This document shows, one piece after another, positions 6,684 through 62,092 of a stretch of DNA of 64,000 nucleotides. Both the position numbers and the translations under genes were made by a program. The DNA lies in contig NZ_MTQP01000050.1 of the NCBI RefSeq assembly GCF_001984175.1, positions 1 to 64,000 on the forward strand, given 5' to 3'. This DNA comes from Saccharothrix sp. ALI-22-I (GTDB taxonomy: Bacteria > Actinomycetota > Actinomycetes > Mycobacteriales > Pseudonocardiaceae). Position 1 is the first letter of the stretch, and each line of letters begins with the position of its first letter. The notes below the pieces were generated by a model. It made no database searches. It saw only the letters and a list, made by a program, of their open reading frames with translations, and was not told the origin of the DNA.

Positions 6684-7367
6684 ATGAGTCGGGTCCGCCC
6701 GGTCGCCGGCGGTGGACGGGCGGTGGAGGTCCCGCCGGAACGCCTGGAAGGGTGGTTCTCCCGGTTCGGCGCCCGGCACGGCGGGGTCGTCTCGACCTCG
6801 GTGACGCCCGGTCGCTGTGTGGTCACAGCGGTGGACGGGACTACGGCCTCCGCTTCGGCCGCCTTCGGTGAATTCACCCCAACGGGTGAGGCTGACGGTC
6901 TTGTGCTCGACGCGTTGCTCGCTCACGCGCTCGCTTCGCGTCGGATCGGGCTGCTGCTGGTGCGGCTCGGCGGGCACAGCATCGGCATCGCGCAGGACGG
7001 CGTGGTGCTCGTGTCGACTACCGACAGTCGTCAGGTCCACGGGCGCAACAAGGCCGGTGGGTGGTCGCAGCAGCGGTTCGCGCGGCGTCGGGAGGGGCAG
7101 GCGCGGGTCGCCCTCCAGGCCGCGGCGGACGACGCGGCGCGGGTGTTGGCGCCTCGGGTGGGTGAGCTGGACGCCGTGGTGCTCGGTGGTGACCGTCAGG
7201 CGTTGGACGCCCTGCGGGGTGACCGCCGGCTGGACGAGGTGTTCGCGCTGGCGTCATCGCGGGTGTTGGACGTGCCGGAGCCTCGGCGGGCGGTGTTGGA
7301 CGAGGCCGCCGTCCGGGCCCGTGCGGTGGAGATCGTCGTCCGGGACCAGCCGCTCCGAAATTCATGA
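6684..7367 (+). CDS. acVLRF1 family peptidyl-tRNA hydrolase (Vms1/ANKZF1-like)
   Basis: The 227-residue protein matches the actinobacterial VLRF1 family, a bacterial branch of the eRF1-like Vms1/ANKZF1 proteins that release nascent chains from peptidyl-tRNA on stalled large ribosomal subunits. The diagnostic stretch GRNKAGGWSQQRFARRREGQ near residues 115-135 corresponds to the catalytic Gln-containing loop of the family. It is followed by the helical core LQAAADDAARVLAPR and the strand LDAVVLGGDRQAL. The ATG at 6684 is preferred over GTG 6678 because GCGAGG sits 7 bases upstream. It is a single-domain protein, unlike the eukaryotic forms. The role in ribosome rescue is inferred from the family. 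Confidence 0.8.
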   Translation: MSRVRPVAGGGRAVEVPPERLEGWFSRFGARHGGVVSTSVTPGRCVVTAVDGTTASASAAFGEFTPTGEADGLVLDALLAHALASRRIGLLLVRLGGHSIGIAQDGVVLVSTTDSRQVHGRNKAGGWSQQRFARRREGQARVALQAAADDAARVLAPRVGELDAVVLGGDRQALDALRGDRRLDEVFALASSRVLDVPEPRRAVLDEAAVRARAVEIVVRDQPLRNS

Positions 7368-33221: not shown

Positions 33222-33851
33222 TTGGCGCGGCGGACAAAGGCAAGGGCCGGGGCCGCGGCTGGGGCTGGGGCCGGGGCAAGGGCCGGCGCCACGCCGGAGC
33301 GGATCGTGGGCGCGGCCGTGCGGTTGTTCGCCGCCAAGGGGTTCGACGCGACGACGGTGCAGGAGGTGGTGGATGCCGCCTCGGTCACCAAAGGCGCGCT
33401 CTACCACTACTTCGGGTCCAAGGACGACCTGCTGTTCGAGATCTACCGGTCACTGATCGGACGGCAGATGGCCGATCTCGACCGGATCGTGGCGGCCCGG
33501 CTGGATGCGGCCACCACGGTGCGGCGCATCCTGGTCAGCCTGGTCGAGACGACTGCCGAGAGCGTGGACGAGACCGCCGTCTTCGTGCGCGAGATGCACC
33601 GGCTGAACGCCGACCGGATGACCAGCTTCCGGGCCGAACGCCGGCGCTACCACGAGACGTTCCGCTCGGTGGTCGAGCAGGCGCAGGAGGCGGGGGAGTT
33701 CAGCTCCGCGGTGCCGGCCGACACCGCGGTGTTGATCGCGCTGGGCGTGGTCAACCAGCTGCCCACCTGGTACCGGCCGGACGGGCCCAAGTCGCCCACC
33801 CAGCTCGGTGCGGAGATCGCCGACTTCATCCTGGCCGGACTCCGCCCCTGA
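33222..33851 (+). CDS. TetR/AcrR family transcriptional regulator
   Basis: A 209-residue repressor starting at TTG 33222, with GGAG 7 bases upstream inside the preceding gene's end. An Ala-Gly-Arg low-complexity tail (RAGAAAGAGAGARAGA) precedes the TetR helix-turn-helix ERIVGAAVRLFAAKGFDATT, then VQEVVDAASVTKGALYHYFG and SKDDLLFEIYRS. The C-terminal ligand domain is helical, ending in IADFILAGLRP. It likely binds the palindrome at 32212-32227 and controls its own operon. The ligand is unknown, perhaps a substrate of the oxidoreductase. Confidence 0.88.
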   Translation: MARRTKARAGAAAGAGAGARAGATPERIVGAAVRLFAAKGFDATTVQEVVDAASVTKGALYHYFGSKDDLLFEIYRSLIGRQMADLDRIVAARLDAATTVRRILVSLVETTAESVDETAVFVREMHRLNADRMTSFRAERRRYHETFRSVVEQAQEAGEFSSAVPADTAVLIALGVVNQLPTWYRPDGPKSPTQLGAEIADFILAGLRP

Positions 33852-33895
33852 ACCCTCGGCGCCTGAACGACTCCGCCCCTGAACACCGAATCCGC

Positions 33896-34936
33896 TCAAT
33901 GATCGCGGTGGGTGGCCAGTTCGGCCAGGGCGAACAGTTCGTCGGCGGCCCTGGCGACGAGGCCGGCCGCGCGCAGGTGGTAGCGGGCACGGGCGAGCAG
34001 GGTGTCCACCTGGCCCTGGCTCCACGCCCGCCCGCCCGCATCGGTGACCAGGTCCGCCACGTGCCGCAGTTCCGCGGCGGACAGGTCGTCGTCACGGTGG
34101 TAGAGCGCCGCGAGCTCACGTCCGGCCGGTGTGCCGGAGCGCATCGCGGCCAGCACCGGCAGCGACTTCTTGCGGTTGCGCAGGTCTGAGTGGATCGGTT
34201 TGCCGGTCACGGCCGGGTCGCCCCAGATCCCCAGCAGGTCGTCGACGTGCTGGAACGCCACCCCGACGTCCTCGCCGAACGCCCGCAGGTGCTTGACCTG
34301 CGCGGGCCGCCCACCTCCGAACGCCGCACCGAGCGCACAAGCGCACGCCATCAGCGCACCGGTCTTCGTCGTGCTCATCCGCACGCACTCGGCCACGTCG
34401 ACGTCCGTGCGCTGCTCGAACGCCATGTCCGCGGCCTGCCCGTCCACCAACGCCAGCACGGCGGCGGTGAGCATCCGTGATCCGCGCGTGGCGGCCGGGT
34501 GCCCGCTGCCCGCGAGGACGTCGAACGCCAGGGCGAGCAACGCGTCACCGGCCTGGATCGCGTTGTTGACACCGAACACGGTCCAGGCGGTCGGCCGGTG
34601 CCGCCGGGTGGCGTCACGGTCCATCACGTCGTCGTGGACCAGCGAGTGGTTGTGCGCCAACTCGACCGCCGCCGCGGCGGTCACGGCCTGCGCCGCGTCA
34701 CCGCCGACGGCTTCGGCGGCGAGCAGCGTGAAGGCCGGGCGGATGGCCTTGCCGCTGCCGCCGCGGGCTGTCCGCCCGGCCGCGTCCCACCAGCCGAAGT
34801 GGTAGCCGACCACGAGTCGCGTCGACGCCGGGAGGGTGTCGACCGCCTCGTGCAGCACGGGCGTGATGGCGACGCGGCTCCACGCCAGCACCTCACCCGC
34901 CGTCCGACGAGTGGTCGGCACGTCGATTCCGGTCAT
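33896..34936 (-). CDS. Polyprenyl synthetase, encapsulin-associated (probable GPP synthase)
   Basis: A 346-residue trans-prenyltransferase. The two Asp-rich motifs are present: DDVMD in HNHSLVHDDVMDRDATRRH and DDLLGIWGD in VAFQHVDDLLGIWGDPAVT. They bind Mg-diphosphate for head-to-tail condensation of IPP with an allylic diphosphate. It is the last gene of the 2-methylisoborneol operon, so geranyl diphosphate is the logical product. Polyprenyl transferases are known cargo of family 2 encapsulins, and a shell gene is in this operon. ATG 34936 with GGAGG upstream is chosen over GTG 34948. Product length is inferred from context. Confidence 0.88.
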   Translation of the reverse strand: MTGIDVPTTRRTAGEVLAWSRVAITPVLHEAVDTLPASTRLVVGYHFGWWDAAGRTARGGSGKAIRPAFTLLAAEAVGGDAAQAVTAAAAVELAHNHSLVHDDVMDRDATRRHRPTAWTVFGVNNAIQAGDALLALAFDVLAGSGHPAATRGSRMLTAAVLALVDGQAADMAFEQRTDVDVAECVRMSTTKTGALMACACALGAAFGGGRPAQVKHLRAFGEDVGVAFQHVDDLLGIWGDPAVTGKPIHSDLRNRKKSLPVLAAMRSGTPAGRELAALYHRDDDLSAAELRHVADLVTDAGGRAWSQGQVDTLLARARYHLRAAGLVARAADELFALAELATHRDH

Positions 34937-34996
34937 CGGTCCTCCCAACGCAGAACGCGGAACCCAGCACGAACGGACAGCCGCGGAACAGAGGGC

Positions 34997-35860
34997 TCAG
35001 AGCCGGCTGTCGACCCGGTCGGCGACGATGAGCAGGTAGTGGAAACTGCCCTCGCGGTAGGCGGTGAGGAACGACTCCTCGACACCGGTCGCCACCGAGG
35101 ACTTGGCCCGCAGTTCCCAGTACGGGATGGTCTGCGCGGTCAGGTCGATCACGTTGATCGGCACGAGGTTGTTGGCCGCCAACGCCTTGAAGTACTCGCT
35201 GCGCGGGTGGACGCTGCACGTGTACCGCTCGTCGATCTGGCTGACCGCCTTGGACCGGCCGCCCGTCACGTCGTTGTAGCAGCCGGTGACGCACACGTAC
35301 CGGCCGCCGTGCTCCAGCAGCCGGGAGAACTCGCCGAACACGTCGAACAGGTTGACGTACATGGTGGTCTCGTTGGTCCACACACCGCGGAACGACCCGG
35401 TCTCGAACCCGGTGTCCAGCATGTTCCGGAAGTGGAACCGCACCTTGTCCGCGACCCCCCACCGCTGCGCCTGCTCACTCGCGAACGCGACCTGCTTCTC
35501 GGAGATGGTCACGCCGTCCACTCGGCACCCGAACCGGCGGTTGGCCATGAAGCTCGTGCCGCCCCGGCCGGATCCGCCGTCCAGCAACCGGTCGTCCGGG
35601 GTGACCCCGCCGAGCTGGTCGAGCAGCACGTCCGCCTGCGCGGTCTCCAGCCGGTGCAGTTCGGCGATGACCCGCGCGTCACGCGTCTCCTCCGGGCCCT
35701 CCAGCACCGAGCGGTCGTACTCGCCGATGCCGTAGTGGTGGTGGTAGAGGCCGTCGACCTCCCCGAGCCGGATGTTGACCGGGTCCTGCTCCAGGTTCCA
35801 GTACGTCGCAACGGACTTTTGGTAGTCGGTGCGCAGGACACGCGGGACAACAGTGGTCAT
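34997..35860 (-). CDS. Geranyl diphosphate 2-C-methyltransferase
   Basis: A 287-residue SAM-dependent methyltransferase. It methylates C2 of geranyl diphosphate, the committed step to 2-methylisoborneol. The SAM motif is LLDGGSGRGGTSFMANRRFG near residue 95; VDGVTISEKQVAFASEQAQR follows. The N-terminal NIRLGEVDGLYHHHYGIGEY and the MYVNLFDVFGEFSRLLEHGG segment are typical of the family, close to sterol methyltransferases in fold. ATG 35860 has AAGGAG upstream. The stop of the synthase gene is 26 bases before it, so they are co-transcribed. Identity rests on pattern and on the operon. Confidence 0.92.
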   Translation of the reverse strand: MTTVVPRVLRTDYQKSVATYWNLEQDPVNIRLGEVDGLYHHHYGIGEYDRSVLEGPEETRDARVIAELHRLETAQADVLLDQLGGVTPDDRLLDGGSGRGGTSFMANRRFGCRVDGVTISEKQVAFASEQAQRWGVADKVRFHFRNMLDTGFETGSFRGVWTNETTMYVNLFDVFGEFSRLLEHGGRYVCVTGCYNDVTGGRSKAVSQIDERYTCSVHPRSEYFKALAANNLVPINVIDLTAQTIPYWELRAKSSVATGVEESFLTAYREGSFHYLLIVADRVDSRL

Positions 35861-35886
35861 GGTGTGTTGCTCCTTGGGGGTCGTTC

Positions 35887-37101
35887 TCAGCGGGCGGCTT
35901 GGTCTCCGTGGTAGCGGGCGGTGGTGCTGTGCCATTCGCGGTTGCCGCCCAGCCAGGCCCACAGGTCGACGAGGAAGCGCCGCAGTTGCGGTGAGCCCAC
36001 GTGGCTGAGGACGGCGGCTTCGGCGACGAACGCGTGCATCAGCTCGTTGTGGATCCGCACGGTGCGGTCGAGCGCTTCGCGCGGTGAGCAGTTCTCCTCG
36101 GCGGCGATGACCTTGGGCAGGTCGAAGTCGTCGTCGGATTCCTTGGCCTTGGAGTAGACGTCGTTGAGGATCACACTCGCGGTGCCGGCCAGGGAGAAGA
36201 CGCGGCGCACGCGTGGGTCGGCGAACTCGTGGGCGGACAGCTCGTAGCCGGCGATCGGGTCGACCAGGGTCATCGGCGGCAGGAAGCTGTTCTGGTGGCG
36301 GTGCGTCAGGTACTCCCAGACGGCCGGCACGCGTCCGGTGCGGCGCCAGTTGCCTTCGTGGTTGTAGGCCATGAACATGATCGACAGCTGGTGGCGCAGC
36401 CGGAGGCACTGGGCCGGTGTCGCGTACTGGGCGAGGTGTTCGAACGCCGAGCGGTACGCGACCGCGACGGGTTCGGCGTCGAGCGCCTTCTCCAGGTCGG
36501 GCACGTAGCCGGTCGGCAGGTCGACCGGGTCCATCGCGGCGTGGGTGATGCCCAGCCTGCGCCCCAGCTGTTCGGGGTCGGCGCCCATGGACTCCTCGTC
36601 GACGAAGTGGTCGTCGGTGGCCCATTCGGCGAGGACGCACTTGGCCGCCGCGAGCAGCCGGTCGGGGTTGTCGGTGCCGGGGTGGGTGAGCATCATGAGC
36701 CGCCCGAAGTCGGCCTTGTGCAGTTTGTCGACCTGGTCGGGGTAGATCCCGACCTGCTGGGCCCACGTGATCAGGTCGTCGTTGACCTGCTTGCCGAGCG
36801 CCGGGTCGTCGCGCACCGCGCCGGGGCAGAACAGTCCCTCTTCCGGGCTGTCCTCGACGGGTTCGGCGGGCACGTCGGCCGGTCGGTGCCCGAGCAGCGA
36901 CGGCAGCCTGGCGCCGGCCGTGCCGAGGCCGGTGGGGCCGCCGAGGATCCGGCGCGCGGCCGGGTCCGGTTGCGGCGGTGTCGGGAAGGACTCGGCCAGG
37001 TCGCCTTTCGGGGCTCTGGCCATGTCGGCGAGGAGCGAGGCCGCGACGTCGGCCAGGCCGTCGGTGGCCGCCGGTGCGAACACACGCGACAGGACGGACA
37101 C
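35887..37101 (-). CDS. 2-Methylisoborneol synthase
   Basis: A 404-residue class I terpene cyclase converting 2-methyl-GPP into 2-methylisoborneol. The metal-binding DDHFVDE is at residues 163-169 and the NSE triad is NDVYSKAKE at 313-321. The first ~105 residues are Pro/Ala-rich and probably disordered, with the conserved GPTGLGTAGARLPSLL; such leaders load the enzyme into family 2B encapsulin shells. GTG 37101 has AAGGAG 7 bases upstream. A longer open frame reaching 38502 is a different reading of the shell gene and not a real fusion. It is a little shorter than the ~440 residues of Streptomyces enzymes. Confidence 0.93.
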   Translation of the reverse strand: MSVLSRVFAPAATDGLADVAASLLADMARAPKGDLAESFPTPPQPDPAARRILGGPTGLGTAGARLPSLLGHRPADVPAEPVEDSPEEGLFCPGAVRDDPALGKQVNDDLITWAQQVGIYPDQVDKLHKADFGRLMMLTHPGTDNPDRLLAAAKCVLAEWATDDHFVDEESMGADPEQLGRRLGITHAAMDPVDLPTGYVPDLEKALDAEPVAVAYRSAFEHLAQYATPAQCLRLRHQLSIMFMAYNHEGNWRRTGRVPAVWEYLTHRHQNSFLPPMTLVDPIAGYELSAHEFADPRVRRVFSLAGTASVILNDVYSKAKESDDDFDLPKVIAAEENCSPREALDRTVRIHNELMHAFVAEAAVLSHVGSPQLRRFLVDLWAWLGGNREWHSTTARYHGDQAAR

Positions 37102-37217
37102 GTTAGTTCTCCTTGGGTGCTCGGCGTCGATCTCGACGCGGTCGATCGACGCCGGTGGTCGTGATCGCCACTCGGCGTGCTGCCCGGTCGGAATTCCGCG
37201 ACGGTGCGCGGGCGGGC

Positions 37218-38639
37218 TCAGTCTTCCCGGCCGATTTCGACCCGTTCCAGGATGGCCAGCGCGTCGGGCACCAGGACGGCCGCCGAGTAGTACGCGCTGA
37301 CGAGATAGGACATGATCGCCTTCTCGTCGATGCCCATGAATCGCACGGACAGCCCCGGCCGGTATTCGTCGGGCAGTCCGGTCTGGTGCAGCCCGATCAC
37401 GCCCTGGTTCTCCAACCCGGTGCGCATGAGCATGATCGAGCTGGTGTTGGTGTCGCTGATCGGGATCTTGCCGCATGGCAGGATGGGCACGCCCCGCCAG
37501 GCGGGCACCTGGTGGCCGTTGAGCTGGATCGGATCCGGCGTGATGCCCCGGCGGTTCCACTCGCGGCCGATGGCCGCGATCGCGCGCGGGTGCGCCAGGA
37601 AGCAGGTCGGCTCTTTCCACACCAGGGCGAGCAGCTGGTCCAGGTCGTCGGGCGTCGGCGGGCCGGTGCGGGTGTGGATGCGCTGCTTCAGGTCGGCGTT
37701 GTGCAGCAGCCCGACCTGCGGGTTGTTGACCAGTTCGCGTTCCTGGCGTTCGCGCAGCGCCTCGATGGTCAGCCGGAGCTGCTGCTCGACCTGGTCCATC
37801 GGCTCGTTGTAGAGGTCCGCGACCCTCGTGTGCACGCGCAGCACGGTCTGGGCGACGCTGAGCTCGTACTGGCGGGGTGAGAGCTCGTAGTCCACGTACG
37901 TGGCGGGCAGGTCGGGCTCGCCGTCGTGGCCCGACGCCAGGTCGATCTCGGCCTCGCCGTAGGCGTTGCGCGCCGGCAGCCGGCCCGCGTGGAAGCGTGC
38001 GAGCTGGGCGCGCAGCGCCTCGGACTGCTCCACCACCGCGTCGAAGGCGGGCTGCGGCAACACCAGCACCGTGCACCGGGTGGCCGCCTTGGCGGTGAAC
38101 TCCCAGGTGCTGGTCGGGTCGGCCAGCGTCTCGTCGCCGAAGTGGTCGCCGTCGGCCAGCACGCCGAGCACGGTCCGGTCGCCGTACTCGCCGGTGCCGA
38201 TCTTGTCCACCTTGCCGTGGGCGATCAGGAACACCTGGTCCGACGGCCGGCCGAACTCGACGATGACCTCGCCCGCCTCGTACTCCCGCTGCTCGAACCG
38301 GTCGGCCAGGGCGCTGAGCACGTCGATGTCGTCGAACCCGCGCAGCAGCGGCAGTTCGCACAGCTCGGGCGGGACGACGTCGATCTCGGACCCGGTGTTG
38401 GTGAAGGTGATCCGGCCGTCGCCCACCTCGTAGCTCAGCCTGCGGTTGACCCGGTACACGCCGCCCTTGGTCTCGACCCACGGCAGCACGCGCAACAGCC
38501 ACCGCGAGGAGATGCCCTGCATCTGAGGCTCGGACTTGGTGGTCGTGGCCAGATTGCGCGCGGCGCCCGTCGCGAGACTCGTGCGCGCCTGGCCGCCCTC
38601 CGTTCCGGAATACGACTCCACCGAATCAGTCAGGGTCAC
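37218..38639 (-). CDS. Family 2B encapsulin shell protein with cyclic-nucleotide-binding domain
   Basis: The 473-residue protein is the HK97-fold shell protein found with 2-methylisoborneol synthase genes, formerly annotated as a Crp/Fnr-like regulator or EshA. A cyclic-nucleotide-binding domain occupies about residues 95-215 ([50 protein letters not shown]). The HK97-like shell part follows, with [40 protein letters not shown] and the C-terminal [20 protein letters not shown]. There is no helix-turn-helix. It heads the operon; its GTG 38639 has no strong ribosome binding site, and a later start is possible. Confidence 0.9.
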
Positions 38640-38661
38640 CTATGACACCGCCCGTCATGTG

Positions 38662-38678
38662 TGGAACAATGTGTTCCA
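38662..38678. promoter_or_regulatory. Palindrome upstream of the 2-methylisoborneol operon
   Basis: TGGAACA-ATG-TGTTCCA is a perfect 7-3-7 inverted repeat 22 bases upstream of the shell gene start, where a regulator could block or recruit RNA polymerase. It does not match the CRP consensus. No regulator gene is adjacent to the operon. Confidence 0.5.
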
Positions 38679-38851
38679 GGGGAGTGGGATGGTTTTGTGG
38701 GAAATGGCGGCGGCGCATTTCAGTTGCCGGTTTGGAAGCCAGATCCGACGTTAGCACCCACAATTCGACGGTGTATAGTCACTCGAATGTGTGCACAACG
38801 CAGGGAAACGGAAATCCCGTTCGGGTGAACACATTCAGGTGGTGTCGGGGC

Positions 38852-39310
38852 TTATGGGTCAACCCGCTGCCGCAGCACGGTCAGCGCTTTGTCGGCGTGG
38901 GTGTTCATGGCGAACTCCGACTTGACCACCTCGATCACGGTCCGGTCGGTGTCGATCACGAACGTGTGCCGCTTCACCGGCAGCGGCCCGAACCGGCGCT
39001 TCACGCCGAACTGCGCGGCCACCTCGCCGTCAGCGTCGGACAGCAGTGGGTAGTCGAAGTCGTTCGTCGTCGCGAACTGGTTCTGCCGCTCCACCGAGTC
39101 CGGGCTGATCCCCACCCGCTGCGCGCCGACCTCGGCGAACTCCGCCGCCAAGTCCCGGAAGTGGCAGCTCTCCGCGGTGCACCCGGCGGTCATCGCGGCC
39201 GGGTAGAAGAACAGCACCACGGGCCCGTTGGTGAGCAGGTCGGACAGGGTGCGCGGCTTGCCGTCCTGGTCGGGCAGGGTGAAGTCGGGTGCCTTGTCGC
39301 CGGGCTTCAT
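38852..39310 (-). CDS. Peroxiredoxin, Bcp/PrxQ type
   Basis: A 152-residue thiol peroxidase reducing H2O2 and organic hydroperoxides. The peroxidatic site lies in FFYPAAMTAGCTAESCHFRD, with peroxidatic Cys44 and resolving Cys49 five residues on, the atypical 2-Cys arrangement of Bcp/PrxQ. The usual PxxxTxxC reads PAAMTAGC. RHTFVIDTDRTV follows as in the family. ATG 39310 has AAGGA upstream. It is divergent from the LacI-type gene with a 100-base gap. Confidence 0.92.
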   Translation of the reverse strand: MKPGDKAPDFTLPDQDGKPRTLSDLLTNGPVVLFFYPAAMTAGCTAESCHFRDLAAEFAEVGAQRVGISPDSVERQNQFATTNDFDYPLLSDADGEVAAQFGVKRRFGPLPVKRHTFVIDTDRTVIEVVKSEFAMNTHADKALTVLRQRVDP

Positions 39311-50043: not shown

Positions 50044-50384
50044 ACTGCCCGGAAACGTGAAGCGGCCCCCTGACCGCTTCCCACACCAGGTGCGGGCCGA
50101 GCTGGACTGGGCTCGGGGTCACGGGGGCCGGGTGGCTGCCTGGGATTCGCCCAGACCACCTGGGAAAGGTCGGTCCTAGCGGACAGCCACCTCACGACGA
50201 GTCCTATAGCTATTCAACTTCGGACCACCTCCTTCCTCGTGTACTGCGAACGCTATGCGAGCCCGGGCGTGCCTCGCAACGTGAATTATTCGTCGGTCCT
50301 GGGGAGCCTGGTCACACGTGCGGCGGGAACGTGAGGTCTGTTTCCCGCCGGACTGGAATGTGTTGGGCCAGCAGGATCTCCGGC
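50044..50384. other. Intergenic region without a recognised feature
   Basis: These 341 bases between UdgX and an SDR gene hold no supported gene or RNA. CCTATAGCTATTCAACTT near 50202-50219 is AT-rich and may be promoter sequence. The direction of any signal is unclear. Confidence 0.35.
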
Positions 50385-52816: not shown

Positions 52817-54849
52817 CAGGCACGGCGCGACCGGCACTGAGGGTGGGCGACCGGGTGGCCTTCGACGGTGAAGAGCACCTCGTCATCGGGTTGGCGGGCA
52901 CATCGGTGCGGTTGCACGCGGACTCCGGCACACAGCAAGTGATGTTGGCTGGGCATCTGATGGCAGCACCGGACTTCGCGGTCCTCAACGCTGGCGGAGA
53001 ACCAGTAGCCGTGCCGGTGGCTGAGCCATTCGGGCTACTGGCGGCGCTCCCGGAAGAGGTCGTCGTCGAAGCCGAGCGCTGGCGGGACCACCTGGTCGAG
53101 GTCGAGACCGGCCTGCTACCCGGCACCGCTCCGGGCTCCCAGCCGCGCCCGGGTTATGACCCTCAGACCACCAGCCTGGCGGATCGACAGCGGGCCAAGG
53201 CCGCCGAGTTGGGAATCGGGTTCCGCACGATCGAACTCAAGCGGGCCCGCTATACCGCGCAAGGGTTGTGGGGGTTGATCGACCAACGCGCGGCCCGCAC
53301 ATTCGACGTCGCCGGGCAGGCCGATCCCCGGCTGGTCGAGGTGTTGCGGGAGTTGATCGCGGCGGAGACCGACGCCTCTACCGGCACCCGATCGCGCCTA
53401 ATCCGCCGCGCGGTCAAGCAAGTGGAAGAGCTGCATGGGCCTGGGACGATCCCGCTGCCGGGCAAGACCTCCTTCTACGCGCTGATCGACCGGCTCAGCG
53501 TTGGACGGCACACCTTCGGCTCGGCGATTACTCGACGCCAGACGGCGAACCGGCCGTCCGGCGCGTTCACCGCGACGGACGCCTCGCGCCCCGGTGAGCA
53601 GGTCCAGATCGACTCCACCCCGATCGACGTGATGGTCCTGGCCGCCGACGGCGTCCCGGTCCGCGCCGATCTGACGATCGCGGTCGACGTCGCCACCCGC
53701 ACCATCGCCGCGGCGGTGCTGCGCCCGGTCGGCACCAAGGCCGTCGACGCGTCGCTGCTGCTGGCCAAGATGCTCGTCCCGGAGCCGATGAGACCCGGCT
53801 GGACCGCCGCGCTGCGGATGTCGGCATCCCGGCTGCCGTTCCAGCGGCTGCTCGACATCGACGCACGGATGCGCGAGGCCGCAGCACGGCCGGTCATCGT
53901 CCCCGACCAGGTCGTGATCGACCACGGACGGGTGTTCGTCTCCGAAACCTTCACCCGTGCCTGCGAACGCCTGGGCATTTCCATCCAGCCCGCGCGCAAG
54001 GACACCCCGACCGACAAGGCCGTGGTCGAGGCGACGTTCAAGGCGATCAAAACACTGTTTGCCCAGCACGTCGCTGGCTTCAAGGGAGCGAACACCACCC
54101 AACGCGGACGCGACGTCACTGCCGTCTGGACCGTCGACGAGCTGCAAGACCTGCTGGACGAGTGGCTGATCGTCGGCTGGCAACACCGCCCGCATGACGC
54201 GCTGCGCGACCCACACGCCCCGCGCCGGATGCTCACCCCCAACGAGCGCTATGCCGCCCTGGTCGCCATCGCCGGTTACTTGCCCATCACGCTGACCGGC
54301 AACGACTACCTGGAGCTGCTACCGGTGAAGTGGCGGGCGATCAACGACTACGGCATCCGCATCGACTACCGCACCTACAACAGCCCTGAACTGGGCGCTT
54401 ACCGCCGCCAACACTCCGGCCTCACCGGCAAGCGCGGCCTCTGGGAAGTCCACTACGACCCCTACGACCTGTCACAGGTGTTCATCCGCACTCCCGGCGG
54501 CTGGATCACCGCGCCCTGGACACACCGGTCGATGATCACCGCGCCGTTCGCCGACTTCACCTGGCGACACGCCCGCCGCTTGACCGCTGAATCCGGGCGG
54601 GACGTCACCGAGACCGAGATCGCCCGTGCACTGGATGCGCTGCTCACTCGCGCCGAACATGGCCCGGACCGGACCGGCGCGCGGATCATCGCCCGCACCC
54701 GCGCCGCAGGGACATCCCACCGGCCGACACTGCCCGACCCGGTTACCACCCCGGAACAACCCACGCCGTCGACGGCCGAGTTCGCGGGCGGGCAGGTGAT
54801 CGAGTTTGGCGTGTTCGACGCCGAAGCCGAAGCAGAAAGGTGGACATGA
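52813..54849 (+). CDS. tnsB: TnsB-like DDE transposase
   Basis: A 678-residue Mu/TnsB-type transposase that joins the 3' ends to the target. The N-terminal half holds DNA-binding helices (ERQRAKAAELGIGFRTIELK-like, with DRQRAKAAELGIGFRTIELK here). The RNase H core has the triad DDE: VQIDSTPIDVMVL, then QVVIDHGRVFVS, and TDKAVVEATFKAIK. A Mu-transposase C-terminal beta barrel follows (LPVKWRAINDYGIRIDYRTY, GLWEVHYDPYDLSQVFI). It overlaps tnsA by 4 bases (GTGA) and tnsC by 4 bases (ATGA), so all are translated together. Confidence 0.92.
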   Translation: MTGTARPALRVGDRVAFDGEEHLVIGLAGTSVRLHADSGTQQVMLAGHLMAAPDFAVLNAGGEPVAVPVAEPFGLLAALPEEVVVEAERWRDHLVEVETGLLPGTAPGSQPRPGYDPQTTSLADRQRAKAAELGIGFRTIELKRARYTAQGLWGLIDQRAARTFDVAGQADPRLVEVLRELIAAETDASTGTRSRLIRRAVKQVEELHGPGTIPLPGKTSFYALIDRLSVGRHTFGSAITRRQTANRPSGAFTATDASRPGEQVQIDSTPIDVMVLAADGVPVRADLTIAVDVATRTIAAAVLRPVGTKAVDASLLLAKMLVPEPMRPGWTAALRMSASRLPFQRLLDIDARMREAAARPVIVPDQVVIDHGRVFVSETFTRACERLGISIQPARKDTPTDKAVVEATFKAIKTLFAQHVAGFKGANTTQRGRDVTAVWTVDELQDLLDEWLIVGWQHRPHDALRDPHAPRRMLTPNERYAALVAIAGYLPITLTGNDYLELLPVKWRAINDYGIRIDYRTYNSPELGAYRRQHSGLTGKRGLWEVHYDPYDLSQVFIRTPGGWITAPWTHRSMITAPFADFTWRHARRLTAESGRDVTETEIARALDALLTRAEHGPDRTGARIIARTRAAGTSHRPTLPDPVTTPEQPTPSTAEFAGGQVIEFGVFDAEAEAERWT

Positions 54850-55919
54850 CCAGCCAGCCGACCTCGCCCGACTCCGACGATGAGCTGGTCCCGGACGAGC
54901 CGCTGACCACTAAGGAAGGCTGGCGTCGGTTCACCGACCACCGCACCGAACCACCTGCCGAACCGGACTCGACAACTCTGTCCGAGCGCGGTCGGACAGA
55001 GTTGGAGCAAGCACGCCGCGATTACCACTCGGATCTGCCGCTGGCCAACACCCCAACCATCCGGCAGGTACTGTCCACCGGCCGGCTGCTGATCCAGCTC
55101 AACCGCCGCCAGATCTCCGCCCGCCGCGGCCTGATCGTCTCCGGTGATTCGGGGACTGGGAAGACCACCGCGCTGACCCAGTTCGGCCGCACCCACGAAC
55201 ACGTCGTCCGCCGCCGTCACCCCGGCCCGGCCGGGCAACATCGGATCCCGGTCGTCTATGTCACCGTACCGACCGCGGCGACGCCAAAGATGCTGGCGGT
55301 CGAACTAGCACGCTTCTACGGCCTGGCCTTCAACTCTCGGGCGACCATGCCCGAGATCGTCAACACCGTCTGCGCTGTCGCCGCCCGCACCCACGTCGAA
55401 CTGGTACTGGTCGACGAGATCCACAATCTCGACCTGGCCACCCGCTCCGGCGCGGAAGTCTCCGACCAACTCAAATACTTCGCCGAACGGCTGCCCGCGA
55501 CCTTCGCCTACGCCGGGATCGAGGTCGAGGAACGCGGCATGTTCGCCGGAGCCCGCGGGCGCCAGATCGCCGGACGGTTCAGCCTGATCCGCTCCACGCC
55601 GTTTGACTACGGCACCGACCAGCAGCGCACCGCCTGGAAGGCGCTCATTGGAACCCTGGAATCCACGCTGCGGCTGCACCACCACAAGCCCGGCACGCTG
55701 GTCGGCCTGGCCGACTACCTGTTCGAGCGCACTGGCGGCATGATCGGCAGCCTCTCCCAACTCGTCCGCGGTAGCGCGGTCCTGGCCATTGACGACGGCG
55801 GCGAGTACATCACCCGCGACCTGCTGGACCGTGTCCCGGTCGACCACGCTGCAGTCCTGTCCCGTCCGCAACGCCGCAAGCGCACCCGGCCCGCGCCCAC
55901 GACGCAGGCTGGTGCCTGA
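54846..55919 (+). CDS. tnsC: TnsC/TniB-like AAA+ ATPase
   Basis: A 357-residue AAA+ regulator that links target selection to the transposase. Walker A is GDSGTGKTT near residue 100, and Walker B is LVLVDEIHNLDLATRSG near residue 180. The sensor regions FAYAGIEVEERGMFAG and GRQIAGRFSLIRSTPFDY follow, as in TniB and TnsC. ATG 54846 overlaps the tnsB stop; GTG 54840 is an alternative. The N-terminal ~60 acidic residues probably contact TnsB. Confidence 0.9.
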   Translation: MTSQPTSPDSDDELVPDEPLTTKEGWRRFTDHRTEPPAEPDSTTLSERGRTELEQARRDYHSDLPLANTPTIRQVLSTGRLLIQLNRRQISARRGLIVSGDSGTGKTTALTQFGRTHEHVVRRRHPGPAGQHRIPVVYVTVPTAATPKMLAVELARFYGLAFNSRATMPEIVNTVCAVAARTHVELVLVDEIHNLDLATRSGAEVSDQLKYFAERLPATFAYAGIEVEERGMFAGARGRQIAGRFSLIRSTPFDYGTDQQRTAWKALIGTLESTLRLHHHKPGTLVGLADYLFERTGGMIGSLSQLVRGSAVLAIDDGGEYITRDLLDRVPVDHAAVLSRPQRRKRTRPAPTTQAGA

Positions 55920-57172
55920 TGGTCTCTCGGTTGCCGATCAACGTTCCGCCCGCCAGCGATGAGATCGCCGTGTCCTACCTCGCCAGGCTCGCCACCCTGC
56001 ACGACATGCCCTTCGACGAACTCTGGGCACAGGTCAGCAGGCCACGCAGCAAAGGCAGCCCCACCCGTCGCCTGGATGGCGACCTGCTGGCCACTGTCGC
56101 CGACCAATCCCGCGCCCAACTGGCCCGCACGGTCGTCGAACTGCGTGACCCGGAACCGGACTGGCTTGCCTTCCGACACGAACCCCAGCGCGGCTGCCGC
56201 CGCTGCACCGCCCGTCATCCCGGCGGCCCGGTCCTGCAACTGCTGCCGCACCATCGCTGGGTGTGCACCCGTCACAGGGCCTGGATCGGCCCACCCGACC
56301 AGGAAGACCACCGCCAACCTGACCTGCACACGTTGCCCGAGATTGTCACAGCCCAGCACCGACACCTACGGCTGATCCGCCGCCTCGGCTTCGCCGCGAC
56401 CTTCGACGCGGTGCTCACCGGCTTTCTCATCTGCGCGCACCGCTGGAACTTCGCCGACCTCGCCTTCCCCGGCGACGCCTGGATCGAATGGCGCCGCCGC
56501 GCCGAACTACTCATCCCACCCGGCACCGAAAGCGACACCTTCAGCACCTCACGACTGTTCGCCTGCACCTACCCCGAAGCAGTCGCCCTCGCCGAACTGA
56601 TCGGCTCGCTGCCTTGGCGACGTCTCGTTGCGGCCGGTCCCGACGGCCAGCGTGCGTTCGCCATCGAGATCGGTCGTCGCCTTGGCGTGCAGGACTACCG
56701 CCCGGCCGTGATCAAAGACGCCGTCGCCCACTGGATGGAACAGGACTGCTGGCGACCACCCAGCCCACCCAACACCGACTACCGCAGCCTCAGAACCTTC
56801 GGCGGACCCACCTTCCGTAAACCCAGCCAGGACAGCGACACCAAACGCCGCGAGAGCGCCCTCTGGTTCAGTCGCCACCGCCGCGGCGGTGATGCCATCC
56901 TGCGCCACCGCACTCTCAACCCAGTCGTCGTCCGAGACTGGTCACACAAGACCGAAGTCTTCAACGTCGCGGTGGAACGGACCGCGCACACCTACGTGGA
57001 CCCACGCAGACACCGAACCGTCAAGGACCTCACCGCACTAGCGACCACCGACTGGGTTAGGCCTGATCCGATCTCGTCGACATGGCTGAACACCGCCACC
57101 GAACCTCTCGACTGGCAGCGACGGACCGGACCGCGCCCGTCGACTGGCGGGCAGCCGTCCCCTCGCAAGTAA
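55919..57172 (+). CDS. tniQ: TniQ/TnsD family target-recognition protein
   Basis: A 417-residue TniQ-family protein. The TniQ domain starts with SDEIAVSYLARLATLHDMPF, followed by a zinc-binding region CRRCTARHPG...HRWVCTRH (CxxC and CxxxH spacing). Members pick the target DNA, as TnsD does for the glmS site, or bridge to CRISPR effectors. It ends in a DNA-binding-like C-terminus rich in Arg. Start overlaps tnsC (TGATG). No CRISPR or Cas gene lies nearby, so sequence-specific DNA recognition is the simpler idea. Its target site is unknown. Confidence 0.9.
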   Translation: MVSRLPINVPPASDEIAVSYLARLATLHDMPFDELWAQVSRPRSKGSPTRRLDGDLLATVADQSRAQLARTVVELRDPEPDWLAFRHEPQRGCRRCTARHPGGPVLQLLPHHRWVCTRHRAWIGPPDQEDHRQPDLHTLPEIVTAQHRHLRLIRRLGFAATFDAVLTGFLICAHRWNFADLAFPGDAWIEWRRRAELLIPPGTESDTFSTSRLFACTYPEAVALAELIGSLPWRRLVAAGPDGQRAFAIEIGRRLGVQDYRPAVIKDAVAHWMEQDCWRPPSPPNTDYRSLRTFGGPTFRKPSQDSDTKRRESALWFSRHRRGGDAILRHRTLNPVVVRDWSHKTEVFNVAVERTAHTYVDPRRHRTVKDLTALATTDWVRPDPISSTWLNTATEPLDWQRRTGPRPSTGGQPSPRK

Positions 57173-57244
57173 CCTTTCAGCCCACTTGCACCGACTACTG
57201 GTTAGACCACTACCGCGGTGTCCCAGACAGATAGGAGGGCGCGA

Positions 57245-57877
57245 GTGCCGGGTTCCGCTAGTCGCGTGCAGCATGCGATTCGGCTGCTGGCTCTTCTCCG
57301 GCAGGCTGGAGAAGACGTCGGGACACCTGGAGATCCACCAGGAGCAGTGCTTGCCGTACGCAGCGAACTACGGCTACAGGCGCTGGACTTCTGGCTGCGC
57401 AACCCCGACTACCTGGCCGACGAACTGGTAACCGAAGTGGAGACGGGCCAGCTCGACCCGTCGTATCTCGAAGTGGCGTCCAGGCTGTTGACCGACCCAG
57501 AGCCGACGCTGCGGCACTACCCGATGCCCCGGTGGCTCTTCGGCGCCTACGAACCACTCGACGACGCTTTCGCTCATCTTGAGGCATACGGCTTGGCAAT
57601 CATGCGCCGTACCCCCGCGGGGTACCGCAACCAGTTCTTCCTACTGCAAGCGGGTGTGGAAGCTGGCGACACCCTGACTGACACCGATTCAGCACTCAGT
57701 TGGTACCCGCGGCAAGTGAAGTTGGTACTGCTGGTCGCACGAAACCAGACAGGCAGCCAGCTCAAGGCTAGGCAGTACCAGCAAGCGTCCTACGCGGGTA
57801 CGGAGTTGGGCACCCACATCGGCCCGATCGCCGACCGGGTGAGTCAGCGGCTGACGGAGGCAAGGAGAGCGTCGTGA
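57245..57877 (+). CDS. Small helical protein, probable middle component of a three-part ABC system
   Basis: A 210-residue protein with no known catalytic motif. The start GTG 57245 has AGGAGGG 5 bases upstream, so the in-frame GTG 57218 is less likely. The sequence is helical with a conserved-looking core: RLQALDFWLRNPDYLADELV, then YEPLDDAFAHLEAYGLAIMR, GYRNQFFLLQAG and AISWYPRQVKLV-like LSWYPRQVKLVLLVARN. This recalls the small middle components of ABC-3C systems, which have an LDFxLRxPxYL-like helix. It overlaps the ATPase gene by 4 bases (GTGA). Identity rests on position and general resemblance. Confidence 0.55.
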   Translation: MPGSASRVQHAIRLLALLRQAGEDVGTPGDPPGAVLAVRSELRLQALDFWLRNPDYLADELVTEVETGQLDPSYLEVASRLLTDPEPTLRHYPMPRWLFGAYEPLDDAFAHLEAYGLAIMRRTPAGYRNQFFLLQAGVEAGDTLTDTDSALSWYPRQVKLVLLVARNQTGSQLKARQYQQASYAGTELGTHIGPIADRVSQRLTEARRAS

Positions 57878-59919
57878 GCGAACTGGGACGAGCAGTCACG
57901 GAGAAGCTGAAAGGTGCCGTGCCGGAAGAAGAGGTCGAAGTCATCCTCCGCGACTCGCGGGTCACCGTCAGCGCTGCCGTTCCGACGCCAGTTCGGTTGC
58001 GGGTCGAAGAGATTGAGTTCTCCGGTGTCAAACGTCTGCGGCAGCCGGATGCGGATGTCACCGAGCTCACCATACGTGAACCTTTCAAGTTCTCCTGGTG
58101 TATGGGGCCGGGCTTGTACGTGGTCGGCAGCCACGAGAACCTACGAGGTAAGAGCACCGTGCTAGAAGTGATCCGCTGGGCACTTCGAGGTCGCTCCCGC
58201 CTTGCAGAGGACGTCCGCTCCTGGCTGGAACATGTCCGAGTGGTCTTCATGGTCGGCGAGGAACACGTCATCGTTGACTTCGCGGTGCACGCCGGACGCC
58301 CTCAAGGCACGGTTCGCCGGGAGAACCCGAGTGGCTCCGGGCAGGTCGAGTTGGCTCGCTTCGATGATGAGGATGCGTTCGAACAGGCGATGGACGCCGT
58401 GATGATGACCCGACTGCACCTTCAGCGCATCGCGGCGTGGCAGGAGGACCAGGCCATTGAGCACGCCTGGACGGCTTACTCTGGCGCTCTCTCAATCTCA
58501 TCCCGAGGGCTGGATTTTTTGCTCGGCGACATCGCGTATTCCGGGATGGCCAGCCGGTTGCTTCAGATGTTCGTGGGCGCGGCGTGGGCGGCTAGCCGAG
58601 CACAGGCCGCGACGGCGGTGAAGACGGTCGAGGCAGCTATCCAGCGGCTACAGCAACAGGCCGACCAGAATCAACAGGCAACCGCAGCGAAACGGGCGGA
58701 CGCTGAGACAGCGGTCAAGGCTGCTCAAGAAGCTCTGAGTGAACTCCCATACAGTGATCAACTGCAAAAGGCCGAAGATGCTGTCGTTCAGGTGCCCCGC
58801 CTTGGTGTTCAAATAACGAATCTGCGGTTGCAACTGGAAGGTCTGCGCGACACCGAGCGAGAGACACGGAAGCAACTGCAGGAAGAACAGAAGCGCAAGC
58901 ACGCGCAGTTGGAAGACGCACTGGCTCGCCGGTTCTTCAACGCCCTACGTCCAACCGCCTGCCCGCGGTGCGCCGCACCGGTGACCGAGGAGCGACGGGT
59001 ACAGGAGTCGCAGGGGCACGAGTGCTCGGTGTGTACGACCGATTTGGATCTCGAGGCTTTCGGTCAAGAGGTTCTTGTTGCTGCCTCCGCACCGCCTCAG
59101 GAACGAGAGGCGGCGCTGCGTAGCGCGACTCTGACTACCCGCGCCCAAGATGATGGAGAGGACGCACCCGAAGACGGGGAGACCGCGCTGCGGCAGGCAT
59201 TGGACAGTACCTCCAGGGCGGCCGACGGTATCGAGGCCCAACTCCGGGCACTGATCGAGCAACGCGATGAAGTCGCAGCGCTGGTACATGCCGGAGGCGA
59301 GTTCGCCGACTTGTTGCAGCGCAGGCACAACGCTGAGTTGGCGCTTGCCCGCGCACAAGGTGCCTTGGACGCTCTGGAGTCCCCTGCCACGCCTGGCGAG
59401 GCCGCCGAGCACGAGGTGCTGAAGCGCAGGCGCGACGTGCTGAAGGCCGCGGAGAAGGTGACCGCTGCCTGGGTCCAAGATGCCCAGCGGGAGGCACTCG
59501 CCGAGCTGTCCAGGGAGATCGCCACGCTAGCCAGGAACTTCGGAATGCAAGAGCTGGTGTCGGTGGAGTTGGGCGGCGGTGCCACCCTGAAGGTCCGCAA
59601 GACCGACGTCACCACCCCGTACAGCAAATGTGTACCGGGGGAGCAGCTACGGTTGAAGGTGGCCACGGCCGTCGCGCTGCTGCGTGCTGGCTTCACCACA
59701 CAGATCGGCCGGCACCCGGGTCTGTTGTTGGTGGACTCTCCCGGTTCAGAGGAAGCGACGAAGACCAGCCTCGACGCGATGCTCCATGCCCTACAGGACG
59801 TGGCAGCCGACTCGACACAGATGCAGATCATCATCGCTACCACCAGGACCGAACTCCTCGACGACCTGATCACCGAAGAGCGCCAGCGGGTAGCCCCGCC
59901 CGGCGGCTACGTCTGGTAG
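57874..59919 (+). CDS. SMC/RecN-like ABC ATPase with CxxC hook
   Basis: A 681-residue protein with a split ABC ATPase head and a coiled-coil arm. Walker A is GSHENLRGKST (85-95), a variant of GxNxxGKST. The arm has long coils (LQQQADQNQQATAAKRADAE; LRLQLEGLRDTERETRKQLQ) around a zinc-like pair CPRCAAP...HECSVC near residues 365-390. The ABC signature region is KCVPGEQLRLKVA and Walker B is LLLVDSPGSEE, with Ser after the Asp in place of Glu. MQIIIATTRTELL is the last strand. Relatives sense DNA or phage structures in ABC-3C and Lamassu defence systems; that role is inferred here. Confidence 0.75.
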   Translation: MSELGRAVTEKLKGAVPEEEVEVILRDSRVTVSAAVPTPVRLRVEEIEFSGVKRLRQPDADVTELTIREPFKFSWCMGPGLYVVGSHENLRGKSTVLEVIRWALRGRSRLAEDVRSWLEHVRVVFMVGEEHVIVDFAVHAGRPQGTVRRENPSGSGQVELARFDDEDAFEQAMDAVMMTRLHLQRIAAWQEDQAIEHAWTAYSGALSISSRGLDFLLGDIAYSGMASRLLQMFVGAAWAASRAQAATAVKTVEAAIQRLQQQADQNQQATAAKRADAETAVKAAQEALSELPYSDQLQKAEDAVVQVPRLGVQITNLRLQLEGLRDTERETRKQLQEEQKRKHAQLEDALARRFFNALRPTACPRCAAPVTEERRVQESQGHECSVCTTDLDLEAFGQEVLVAASAPPQEREAALRSATLTTRAQDDGEDAPEDGETALRQALDSTSRAADGIEAQLRALIEQRDEVAALVHAGGEFADLLQRRHNAELALARAQGALDALESPATPGEAAEHEVLKRRRDVLKAAEKVTAAWVQDAQREALAELSREIATLARNFGMQELVSVELGGGATLKVRKTDVTTPYSKCVPGEQLRLKVATAVALLRAGFTTQIGRHPGLLLVDSPGSEEATKTSLDAMLHALQDVAADSTQMQIIIATTRTELLDDLITEERQRVAPPGGYVW

Positions 59920-59992
59920 GTGCGCTCGCCGATGAGCTGAGGCAGGGTGTCACGAGACGGAGCCATAGCAGAAGCCCGAAAGGAGGTAGAGG

Positions 59993-62092
59993 GTGAACGA
60001 CGACATCCTGCCCCGCACCGCTTCTCCAGAGCCAACCGCTGAAGGGCCGACGATCGCCGCCATCGGCGGCTGGCCACAGATCCCAGAACGAGCGGCGGCT
60101 CTGGTCGACGACCCAGAACTCGTCGACCTCACCCGCTTGGTCGTCGACGACGAACCTCCAACCGATCTTGCTGGTGCCGTTCATGCTGCGCTGATCGACG
60201 CGTTGGACCGATGCGCCAGCCCGGCCATCGTGCACGAGTGTCTCGAGATCCTGCTGGAAAGCAGTTCAGTTCTACAGCAGGTTGGAGAGCGGCTGTATCG
60301 CATGTGTCTGACCCGTGCGAAACCTCCCGCGTTCGACGCCAGCCCTCGATCATGGCTGCTGGCTGCCGATGCGCTCGAAGCTGCAACCCGCCTCGCTCTC
60401 GGCGGCTGGGGGCAACGGTTCTTTCTCCTTGCTGAACTGATGCAACTGCCGCCAGTCGCTCCTCCGTTGTTCGTACGCTCGGCACTGCGGTGCCTGGCGG
60501 CCAGCTACGAACAGTGGCGAGAACCTGAACTCGTCGGCGTACTCGAGCAACTGGCTGGCATCCGGCCATCGGCCAACCCGGTGCAAGTTGATACGGCCAC
60601 TGCCGAGCAGTGGGCTCATGACATCGCCCCGGATGCCGCTTACGAACTCGGCTGCGCGTCACTGCTGCAGGCGTTTGGCGTGAGCACGCTACTTGAAGCC
60701 GAGGAGCATCTGCAGGCCGCAGAACGCCGCCTGGCCAACGCCGCCGCTGACCGTGAAGACGCCGCCGTCCTAGCCGACGTGGTCCGCCTTCTGTCCGCAC
60801 AATTACCTACCGATACAGGTCGCAACGTGCGTGCCTCCATCGACCTGACCGCTTTGGCCGACCACCTCGAACAGCGAGTGAAAGAGCACGTCCTCGGCTA
60901 CGCAGGGTTGAATCACTGGCGCACACCACGGCTAGACGCCGAAGTCGCATGGGCACAACTGGCTCACGATGTCGCCCACACCAGCACAGCTCTGGCAGAA
61001 GCGAGCTGGTACCACGCCGAAGAGACATTGGCCAACGTCCTAGCCGCCTACACCGCCTCTCGCTGCAGCCGTGTCTTGCGACGCGAGGACCAGATCGGTG
61101 TACGGGCGATCCTTGCGCCCTCGATCGAGTCTGGTATCGCGGTTCAAGCTGGCTTGATGAAACACCTAGAGGATCACATCCGCGCCCTCGAAGCAGGTTC
61201 AGACGCTCTCCTTTCTGGCACGGAGGGCGCCCGTGTGGAGACGCGTCGCGACAGCGAACGTACAACCGAATTGGCAGCAGCTCGATCCTTGCTGGCCGAG
61301 GCACGTACACAACTCGCCACCGCGGACCACGTCCCAAAATCGCATGGCAGCGCCGCTACCTCGCCTGATCGCCCCGCGACGCTGCCCTTGCTGCACCGGC
61401 TACTCGGAGGCGACAGCGCCACTATGAACGCTCTACCTTCCGAAATCGCCCACCGATTGGAGAGCGCCCTCTCCGGACGTAATGAGTTTCACGATGGGGC
61501 GCTCGCTGCGCGCGACACGCTTGTTGTTCAGGATACATTTATCCAATTGCAGCACGGTCTGCGCGGTAGCGAGTATTATTGCGGCGAAGTTAAAGAGGTC
61601 GTCGATGAGTTGATGCTGATATTGCTGCGATTCTGGCGAAGCCGGGATGGTTTCGGTCCCAGTAGAATGCCGTATCTATTCAACCCCAAGGCGGTAGAGG
61701 AGGACCTTGCGCGGGACCTCAAGACGTTCTTCGACGGTAACTCAATCTCGACACTAATGGCAACTGAGGTTCGCGATGTTGGAGGCGGCCGCGTGGATGT
61801 GGCTTGCCTTTACCCGCGCTTCCGCCTGTATATAGAGTTGAAGCAGGATGATCGGAAGCTCGATATGGTCGAAAAGCGGCGTTATCTAGCTCAAACCGCT
61901 GGCTATCAAGGGGCCGATGTTCCGATAGGTTTCCTGGCGGTCCTCGACCTCCAGCGACGGACTGGCCCAACGCCACACCTGAAATCTTGCTTCGGCGTCG
62001 TCGTCCGCGATAACCCTGATCTAGGGCGGCCGCGGCACATTGTGACGATGTCTGTTCCCGGTAATCGGACCGAGCCGTCCTCCATGCGGTGA
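59993..62092 (+). CDS. Helical protein with C-terminal PD-(D/E)XK nuclease-like domain
   Basis: A 699-residue protein with a strong AAAGGAGG site before GTG 59993. Residues 1-570 are mostly alpha-helical with no known motif. The last ~120 carry a restriction-like core: DLKTFFDGNSISTLMATEVR, then GGGRVDVACLYPRFRLYIEL with the Asp, and the ELK of YIELKQDDRKLDM 14 residues on. This is the D...ExK layout of PD-(D/E)XK nucleases. Base use turns AT-rich from about 61480. It lies 73 bases after the ATPase gene, in the same operon, and is the probable effector. Confidence 0.7.
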   Translation: MNDDILPRTASPEPTAEGPTIAAIGGWPQIPERAAALVDDPELVDLTRLVVDDEPPTDLAGAVHAALIDALDRCASPAIVHECLEILLESSSVLQQVGERLYRMCLTRAKPPAFDASPRSWLLAADALEAATRLALGGWGQRFFLLAELMQLPPVAPPLFVRSALRCLAASYEQWREPELVGVLEQLAGIRPSANPVQVDTATAEQWAHDIAPDAAYELGCASLLQAFGVSTLLEAEEHLQAAERRLANAAADREDAAVLADVVRLLSAQLPTDTGRNVRASIDLTALADHLEQRVKEHVLGYAGLNHWRTPRLDAEVAWAQLAHDVAHTSTALAEASWYHAEETLANVLAAYTASRCSRVLRREDQIGVRAILAPSIESGIAVQAGLMKHLEDHIRALEAGSDALLSGTEGARVETRRDSERTTELAAARSLLAEARTQLATADHVPKSHGSAATSPDRPATLPLLHRLLGGDSATMNALPSEIAHRLESALSGRNEFHDGALAARDTLVVQDTFIQLQHGLRGSEYYCGEVKEVVDELMLILLRFWRSRDGFGPSRMPYLFNPKAVEEDLARDLKTFFDGNSISTLMATEVRDVGGGRVDVACLYPRFRLYIELKQDDRKLDMVEKRRYLAQTAGYQGADVPIGFLAVLDLQRRTGPTPHLKSCFGVVVRDNPDLGRPRHIVTMSVPGNRTEPSSMR

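Follow-up and report, generated by a model that had tools for sequence, protein, structure and literature searches.

Within a 64,000-nucleotide stretch of the Saccharothrix sp. ALI-22-I genome (10.3 Mb in 69 contigs), corresponding to positions 1 to 64,000 of contig NZ_MTQP01000050.1 (G000:C47:1-64000) and called the window below, four genes at 33896-38639 on the minus strand form an operon that encodes, in this order, a family 2B encapsulin shell, a 2-methylisoborneol (MIB)-synthase-like terpene cyclase (TC), a geranyl diphosphate (GPP) 2-C-methyltransferase, and an encapsulin-associated polyprenyl transferase (prenyltransferase, PT). The shell is the only one in the operon and, judged by its sequence motifs, it is very probably of the Enc1 type, while the only Enc2-type shell found in the genome is encoded at another locus (L005, contig C67). 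In the reading that we favor, and that we consider evenly balanced between right and wrong, the four genes are a family 2B operon of the TC/PT type whose product would be a C11 monoterpenoid derived from 2-methyl-GPP, and its orphan Enc1 would pair with the Enc2 of C67. Operons linking TC and PT are already known (PMC8346489, PMC12407261), and a two-component TC/PT class is listed in the latter; new here are the lone Enc1-type shell, the frequent loss of a Phe residue in MIB-linked PTs, and the location of the operon between tetR and bcp.

All four genes are intact and exceed the curated NCBIfam cut-offs, and we hold their identities and the operon with very high confidence. The shell gene (37218-38639, minus; GTG start at 38639, 473 aa) scored 776.9 bits against NF041163 (cut-off 400), the cyclase gene (35887-37101, minus; GTG start at 37101, 404 aa) 519.4 bits against NF041167, the encapsulin cargo terpene cyclase family (cut-off 400), and the PT gene (33896-34936, minus; ATG start at 34936, 346 aa) 474 bits against NF041169, the encapsulin cargo PT family (cut-off 450). 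The methyltransferase gene (34997-35860, minus; ATG start at 35860, 287 aa) scored 530.5 bits against NF041943 (cut-off 400), which marks the locus as MIB type, and 345.5 bits against PDB 4f84. Intergenic gaps measure 116, 26, and 60 bases. The PT start was placed at ATG 34936 since GGGAGG stands before it; the listed TTG at 34948 would add four codons. The initial annotation had this gene set, with its family 2B shell and encapsulin-type prenyltransferase, right in both identity and extent; its description of the operon as complete is correct for the four intact genes and doubtful with regard to the missing Enc2-type shell.

The shell protein combines an intact SrpI-like HK97 domain (PF19307, 452.9 bits) with an inserted domain of cyclic-nucleotide-binding (CNB) fold (PF00027, 60.2 bits; residues 118-205, 38025-38288, minus), the architecture that defines family 2B. 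Its top PDB matches are solved encapsulin shells, namely 9bje (Sl-Enc1, 671.6 bits) and 9bhu (635.7 bits). Genes of this kind were described as Crp-Fnr transcription factors in PMC3072421 and PMC3827479, and the CNB domain could suggest such a role for the shell gene as regulator of the operon; this is refuted by the domain content, as the protein carries the HK97 domain and no DNA-binding domain was found in the domain search of the shell, and we give the idea practically no credence. The assignment to the Enc1 type relies on motifs defined in PMC12407261, where diagnostic motif 1 reads TVWK in Sl-Enc1 (9BJE) and RRRK in Sl-Enc2 (9BIX). The window shell has LVWK (residues 339-342, 37614-37625, minus) and an Enc1-like motif 2, NGHQVP, which alone is non-discriminating, GHxxP being present in many single shells as well. 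In the careful tree the closest partner of the window shell is the first of the two shells in L118, an MIB-type locus from the same genus (sister relation, support 100/97), and both fall in a five-row clade of first shells (95/81) from two-shell loci of Saccharopolyspora and Actinophytocola.

The motif class was compared with the number of shells per locus across 77 MIB-type loci with a shell match of at least 230 residues. These comprise 72 loci from a cyclase-alignment scan of 80 (the best 80 of 250 relatives, and thus biased toward close kin of the window cyclase) together with L005, L118, L124, L126, and L129; the remaining eight scan loci had a shorter shell match (L050) or none. In each of the 17 two-shell loci the first shell is Enc1-type (VWK in 16, TV-R in L040) and the second RR-type, while 59 of the 60 single shells are RR-type (Fisher 3.7e-16, kinship ignored); L096 and L111, labeled 'other' by the script owing to a gap outside the slice, read MRRNT and are included among the 59. 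The only exception is L063, with a VWK shell. The window operon, with a single shell and an Enc1 motif, thus breaks the RR rule of single shells, and its motif class would, by analogy, argue against homomeric assembly. In PMC12407261, Sl-Enc1 alone gave no shells, Sl-Enc2 alone did, and both co-assembled. With a lone shell of the Enc1 type, and given that this published Enc1 failed to form shells by itself, the operon may depend in trans on the single Enc2 that the genome encodes, a dependence that we rate close to even, if a little under.

A competing view is that the Enc1-type shell self-assembles and packages the cyclase without a partner in trans, as the single shell of Streptomyces griseus does. 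We take PDB entry 9bhu to be that self-assembling single shell. Single shells are the rule (60/77 loci with a readable motif, 5 of the 77 lying outside the 80-locus scan), the HK97 domain of the window shell is intact and close to Sl-Enc1, and L063 offers a precedent for a lone VWK-type shell. Set against this are the RR-type motif of nearly all single shells, with 9bhu itself reading RR at motif 1, and the failure of Sl-Enc1 to form shells alone. Self-assembly seems plausible to us, somewhat short of even.

Where the partner could come from was examined in the window and in the rest of the genome. The 64 kb hold one shell gene, in place of the pair within 10 kb that marks a two-component operon, and no Enc2 remnant was seen there. 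Three family 2B shells were found in the genome: the window shell and a pair at C67:268425-271233 (L005), in which an Enc1 (TVWK) and an Enc2 (RRRK) are followed by a PT and IspH; this Enc2 is the one RR-type shell of the genome, and a fourth, weak shell match is a 31% match to the CNB domain. Such a two-shell PT locus seems to belong to the core of the genus: two or more shell matches and one or more PT matches occur in 25/25 genus genomes searched. The window operon would descend from the two-shell (Enc1 + Enc2) type and now sit between tetR and bcp with an orphan Enc1, a proper shell probably being formed with the Enc2 from C67, so that two loci would share one mixed shell. Tentatively, this can be extended to mixed shells holding cargo from both loci, with Enc1 and cyclase supplied by the MIB operon and Enc2 by the genus-wide PT locus, while the PTs recruited into MIB operons would have been re-tuned repeatedly at the main chain-length residue (Phe to His or Ser) for a pathway-specific prenyl diphosphate; we regard this extension as rather doubtful.

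Several observations weigh against the pairing. The lone VWK shell of L063 exists, at 48% identity to the window shell and in a locus with no methyltransferase; the Enc1 that failed to assemble alone in PMC12407261 is a single example, which belongs to a putative xylulose-kinase system and was expressed in E. coli; and motif 1 is at most a presumed cause of non-assembly. The window and C67 shells have not co-evolved as a pair, and another genome (G152; L263 8419-9831) has a full-length orphan Enc1-type shell with no recognized cargo genes beside it. On the side of the pathway, the cyclase is only 39.8% identical over 352 residues to the S. coelicolor MIB synthase (SCO7700, 3v1v), and the position of the window PT in its tree is not resolved.

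The orphan shell in G152, a fragment of an Enc1-type shell in G155 (L264 9795-10271; no recognized cargo genes adjacent), and MIB-type loci with shell remnants only in G088 and G160 indicate that shell orphaning and decay are recurrent here. For the question of what the two shell types of family 2B are for, an Enc1-only operon with a single distant Enc2 provides a natural test of the dependence of Enc1 on Enc2 and of shell sharing. In the literature on encapsulins with methylisoborneol, geosmin, EshA, or prenyltransferase, most subscription papers being outside reach, no paper was recognized as treating an orphan Enc1 or the PT pocket residue discussed below. Shell remnants lie beside a methyltransferase and a class-B cyclase in two same-genus genomes (L116 7801-8400 and L159 10177-11020), and the one in L159 carries an Enc2-like motif 2.

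We consider the cyclase, with good confidence, to be the cargo of the shell. It has an N-terminal leader of 87 residues (36841-37101, minus) that AlphaFold2 predicts to be disordered (predicted local distance difference test, pLDDT, < 50 at residues 1-23 and 25-87), followed by a confident all-helical core. The leader includes GPTGLGT (residues 55-61, 36919-36939, minus), a putative cargo-loading motif that PMC8346489 gives for cyclases of the 2-MIBS-like kind. A disordered leader of the cargo kind had been proposed from the first reading at about 105 residues; the kind is borne out, the length is shorter. The S. coelicolor enzyme is made less active and more soluble by its Pro-rich N-terminal domain (PMC10520479). 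Both metal motifs, DDHFVDE and NDVYSKAKE, conform to DDxxxD/E and NDxxSxxxE. Following this model, the methyltransferase would make 2-methyl-GPP, the leader would load the cyclase into the shell lumen, and cyclization would take place inside, most likely to 2-methylisoborneol. Another 2-methyl-GPP derivative, such as 2-methylenebornane, is an unlikely product: the low identity to SCO7700 leaves room for it, and both compounds arise from 2-methyl-GPP (PMC5908152), but the metal motifs and the N-terminal motif of 2-MIBS-like enzymes are present, and the class-B cyclases are more distant from SCO7700 (34.7-35.5%) than the window cyclase is. A loss of GPTGLGT in shell-less loci was also considered (at most two mismatches in 61/72 loci with a shell vs. 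5/8 without; exact in 39/72 vs. 2/8) and is suggestive only. Two further observations concern cyclase genes of other loci: in Pseudonocardiales clusters L007 (2888-4003) and L008 (2948-4045), a further terpene-cyclase-like gene, only distantly related (23-24% identity to the window cyclase), lies beside the cyclase, and in L124 and L126 the class-A cyclase is a fragment within the cluster while a class-B cyclase adjoins on the opposite strand, an apparent cyclase replacement.

A different arrangement had been suggested by the initial annotation, in which GPP formation, methylation, and cyclization may be co-packaged, with the cyclic-nucleotide-binding domain of the shell acting as the gate. 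The four genes do share one operon, and the PT family is classed as encapsulin cargo in NCBIfam and as putative cargo in PMC8346489. However, the leader is confined to the cyclase: no copy of GPTGLGT within two mismatches was found in the methyltransferase, the PT, or the shell, and order begins at residue 13 of the PT, which has pLDDT < 50 only at residues 1-7 and at most four extra codons upstream in the open frame. The disordered N-terminal domain of 50-100 residues described for encapsulin-linked PTs (PMC8346489) is thus absent from the window PT, and other PTs, inspected by eye, likewise start near the first helix. The idea that shell-linked PTs carry a short tag at the N-terminus was weak and was dropped, linked and unlinked N-termini being about equally long and differing in letters by clade only. 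The phosphate-binding cassette of the CNB-fold domain, compared with cAMP-dependent kinase subunits, reads FGD in place of FGE and lacks the Arg, so that neither the Glu nor the Arg of a nucleotide site is retained. PMC12407261 states that no cyclic nucleotide is bound by the CNB-fold domain, as had been shown before in a different system, and that family 2B has diverged at the residues needed for binding. The study of the S. griseus system reportedly agrees. The degenerate site speaks against cyclic-nucleotide control here, a nucleotide gate is unlikely, and the combined arrangement of co-packaging and gating appears very improbable; methyltransferase and PT would probably be outside the shell, or at least not packaged by a leader.

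The PT departs from the comparison PTs at a position five residues ahead of its first Asp-rich motif (DDVMD, residues 102-106, 34619-34633, minus). At this chain-length position the window PT has His97 (codon 34646-34648, minus), whereas Phe occupies it in 68/68 PTs that are not MIB-linked (26 from two-shell loci of the genus, 16 unlinked in the genus, and 26 order-wide); His or Ser is found in 9/14 MIB-linked PTs, the window included. Among the order-wide PTs, the duplicates L207, L214, and L215 were left out, L223 was counted as MIB-linked for its adjoining methyltransferase match, and linkage was judged on 1.5 kb flanks only, so some are possibly misfiled. Of the 76 positions at least 97% conserved in the comparison PTs this one is the most deviant, the next being residue 173 (6/14). 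The PT tree contains four changes between Phe and another residue, all on MIB-labeled lineages that make up 24% of the branch length (roughly 0.003 by chance); it offers only one starred independent pair, and a phylogenetic test is powerless. When 390 family genomes were scanned with DNA patterns for the His and Ser forms only, six and two genomes matched, respectively, and 8/8 were already known MIB-linked PTs (the Ser match in G594 is identical to L045). This restriction to MIB-linked PTs suggests a pathway-linked role, which we consider rather likely, and it yields a one-residue prediction on precursor supply.

What the PT makes is another matter. The first reading had called it a GPP-producing synthase. 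By the chain-length rule in PMC6214179, small residues go with geranylgeranyl diphosphate (GGPP) and aromatic ones with shorter products, and a change from Phe to His or Ser therefore does not predict GPP; in the mycobacterial GPP synthase described there the product is set by an Arg in both Asp-rich motifs, and the window PT has none in either. GPP as product is accordingly a doubtful proposition. The PT might even stand outside this pathway, as a longer-chain maker kept from a TC/PT cluster, with GPP drawn from the general pool: 70/80 MIB-type loci show no PT, the nearest folds after 3nf2 (template modeling score 0.91) are mostly GGPP and longer-chain synthases, and His97 gives no short-chain sign. 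The pocket change, which among the PTs tested occurs in MIB-linked ones only (9/14 vs. 0/68, and all eight pattern matches), speaks against that alternative, to which we give a substantial but minority chance.

The closest known systems each differ from the window operon. The S. griseus system reportedly comprises a family 2B shell, a 2-MIBS-like cyclase with a disordered leader, and a GPP methyltransferase. The window resembles it in its family 2B shell, as the score to 9bhu indicates, and differs in motif 1 (LVWK vs. RR) and in the added PT. Two-component TC/PT operons (PMC12407261; L036-L038, L041, L042, L045, and L055) share the cyclase, methyltransferase, PT, and Enc1-type shell; the window differs from them in lacking Enc2 and in its order shell-cyclase-methyltransferase-PT. 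L118 (G143, same genus) has the sister shell and a methyltransferase of the same clade, but its shells number two, its cyclase is of class B (46%), and 20 kb of it contain no PT. L005 has a PT 62.7% identical over 346 residues and an Enc1-type shell at 72%, and differs by its Enc2 and IspH gene and by the cyclase and methyltransferase, neither of which was found there. That many MIB loci lack a linked synthase, as had been supposed, agrees with our sample, in which a PT was present in 10/80 loci (4/65 after dropping loci with the cluster < 1.5 kb from an end) and two shells in 13/80; family 2B systems were counted in PMC8346489 as 904 TC, 900 PT, and 165 TC + PT. The co-occurrence of two shells and PT (8/13 vs. 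2/67, Fisher 1.8e-6) reduces to three independent contrasts on the tree and has no significance there.

The gene trees place the parts of the operon differently. The window cyclase stands apart from the class-B cyclases of the genus (approximately unbiased (AU) test, p 1e-90), and the methyltransferase and the shell stand apart from the L036-L042 group (p 0.0002, and p 0.028 and 8.5e-7, respectively), the groups having been partly picked after seeing the FastTree result. A joint transfer of cyclase and PT, suggested by FastTree, was abandoned, as the careful trees resolve neither (AU p 0.41-0.47 for PT groupings, 0.41 for the cyclase with L036-L042). Among 25 genus genomes, a cyclase of the window class occurs only in the window genome, and 13 others match at 39-46%. 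Methyltransferase and shell have kin in the genus, and the cyclase is distant from genus cyclases; in the simplest reading, the operon would keep an older cyclase, a different one being present in relatives that share its shell and methyltransferase lineage.

The operon occupies a segment (33852-38851) between the convergent genes tetR (ending at 33851) and bcp (stop at 38852). Matches to Bcp and TetR adjoin in most of the genus, and in 15/16 regions from relatives the site is empty, with a gap of 14-236 bp and nothing between, compared with 5.0 kb and the operon in the window; in the 16th (G160), Bcp lies outside the 2.5 kb taken. No inverted or direct repeats were recognized as a flanking duplication at the insertion, and none of the other genus loci tested showed the window flanking genes next to it. 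The presumed promoter region, from the operon to the bcp stop (38640-38851), holds a perfect, operator-like palindrome, TGGAACA-CAT-TGTTCCA (38662-38678), 22 bases ahead of the shell start, which was found neither upstream of the other shells tested nor in relatives.

An Rfam match to RF02735 (Sernc350, an antisense RNA) covers 38089-38585 on the plus strand, over the shell gene. The model matched 8/8 family 2B shell genes that have this 5' part in 10 further sources and 0/3 sources without it; the loci noted for this behavior are L005, L007, L008, L009, L013, L024, and L025. The source paper used double-stranded cDNA and SYBR quantitative PCR, and a term search of its accessible text gave no strand-specific step (PMC3827479). 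We take the match for coding homology and not for a sign of an RNA; the model behaves as if it recognized family 2B shell genes by their 5' half, seen from the antisense strand. Elsewhere in the window, an ARAGORN call at 6695-6785 (plus), whose anticodon has four bases and to which no amino acid is assigned, was taken for a false positive. A TniB-like gene (PF05621) opens a stretch of lower GC content at 54840-62092 (plus; 0.60-0.68 vs. about 0.70), possibly a Tn7/Tn5053-like element, and the long open reading frames near it gave no Pfam match at 1e-8. Finally, Rfam Ms_IGR-5 (RF02471) matched at 50057-50242 (minus) with 102.2 bits.

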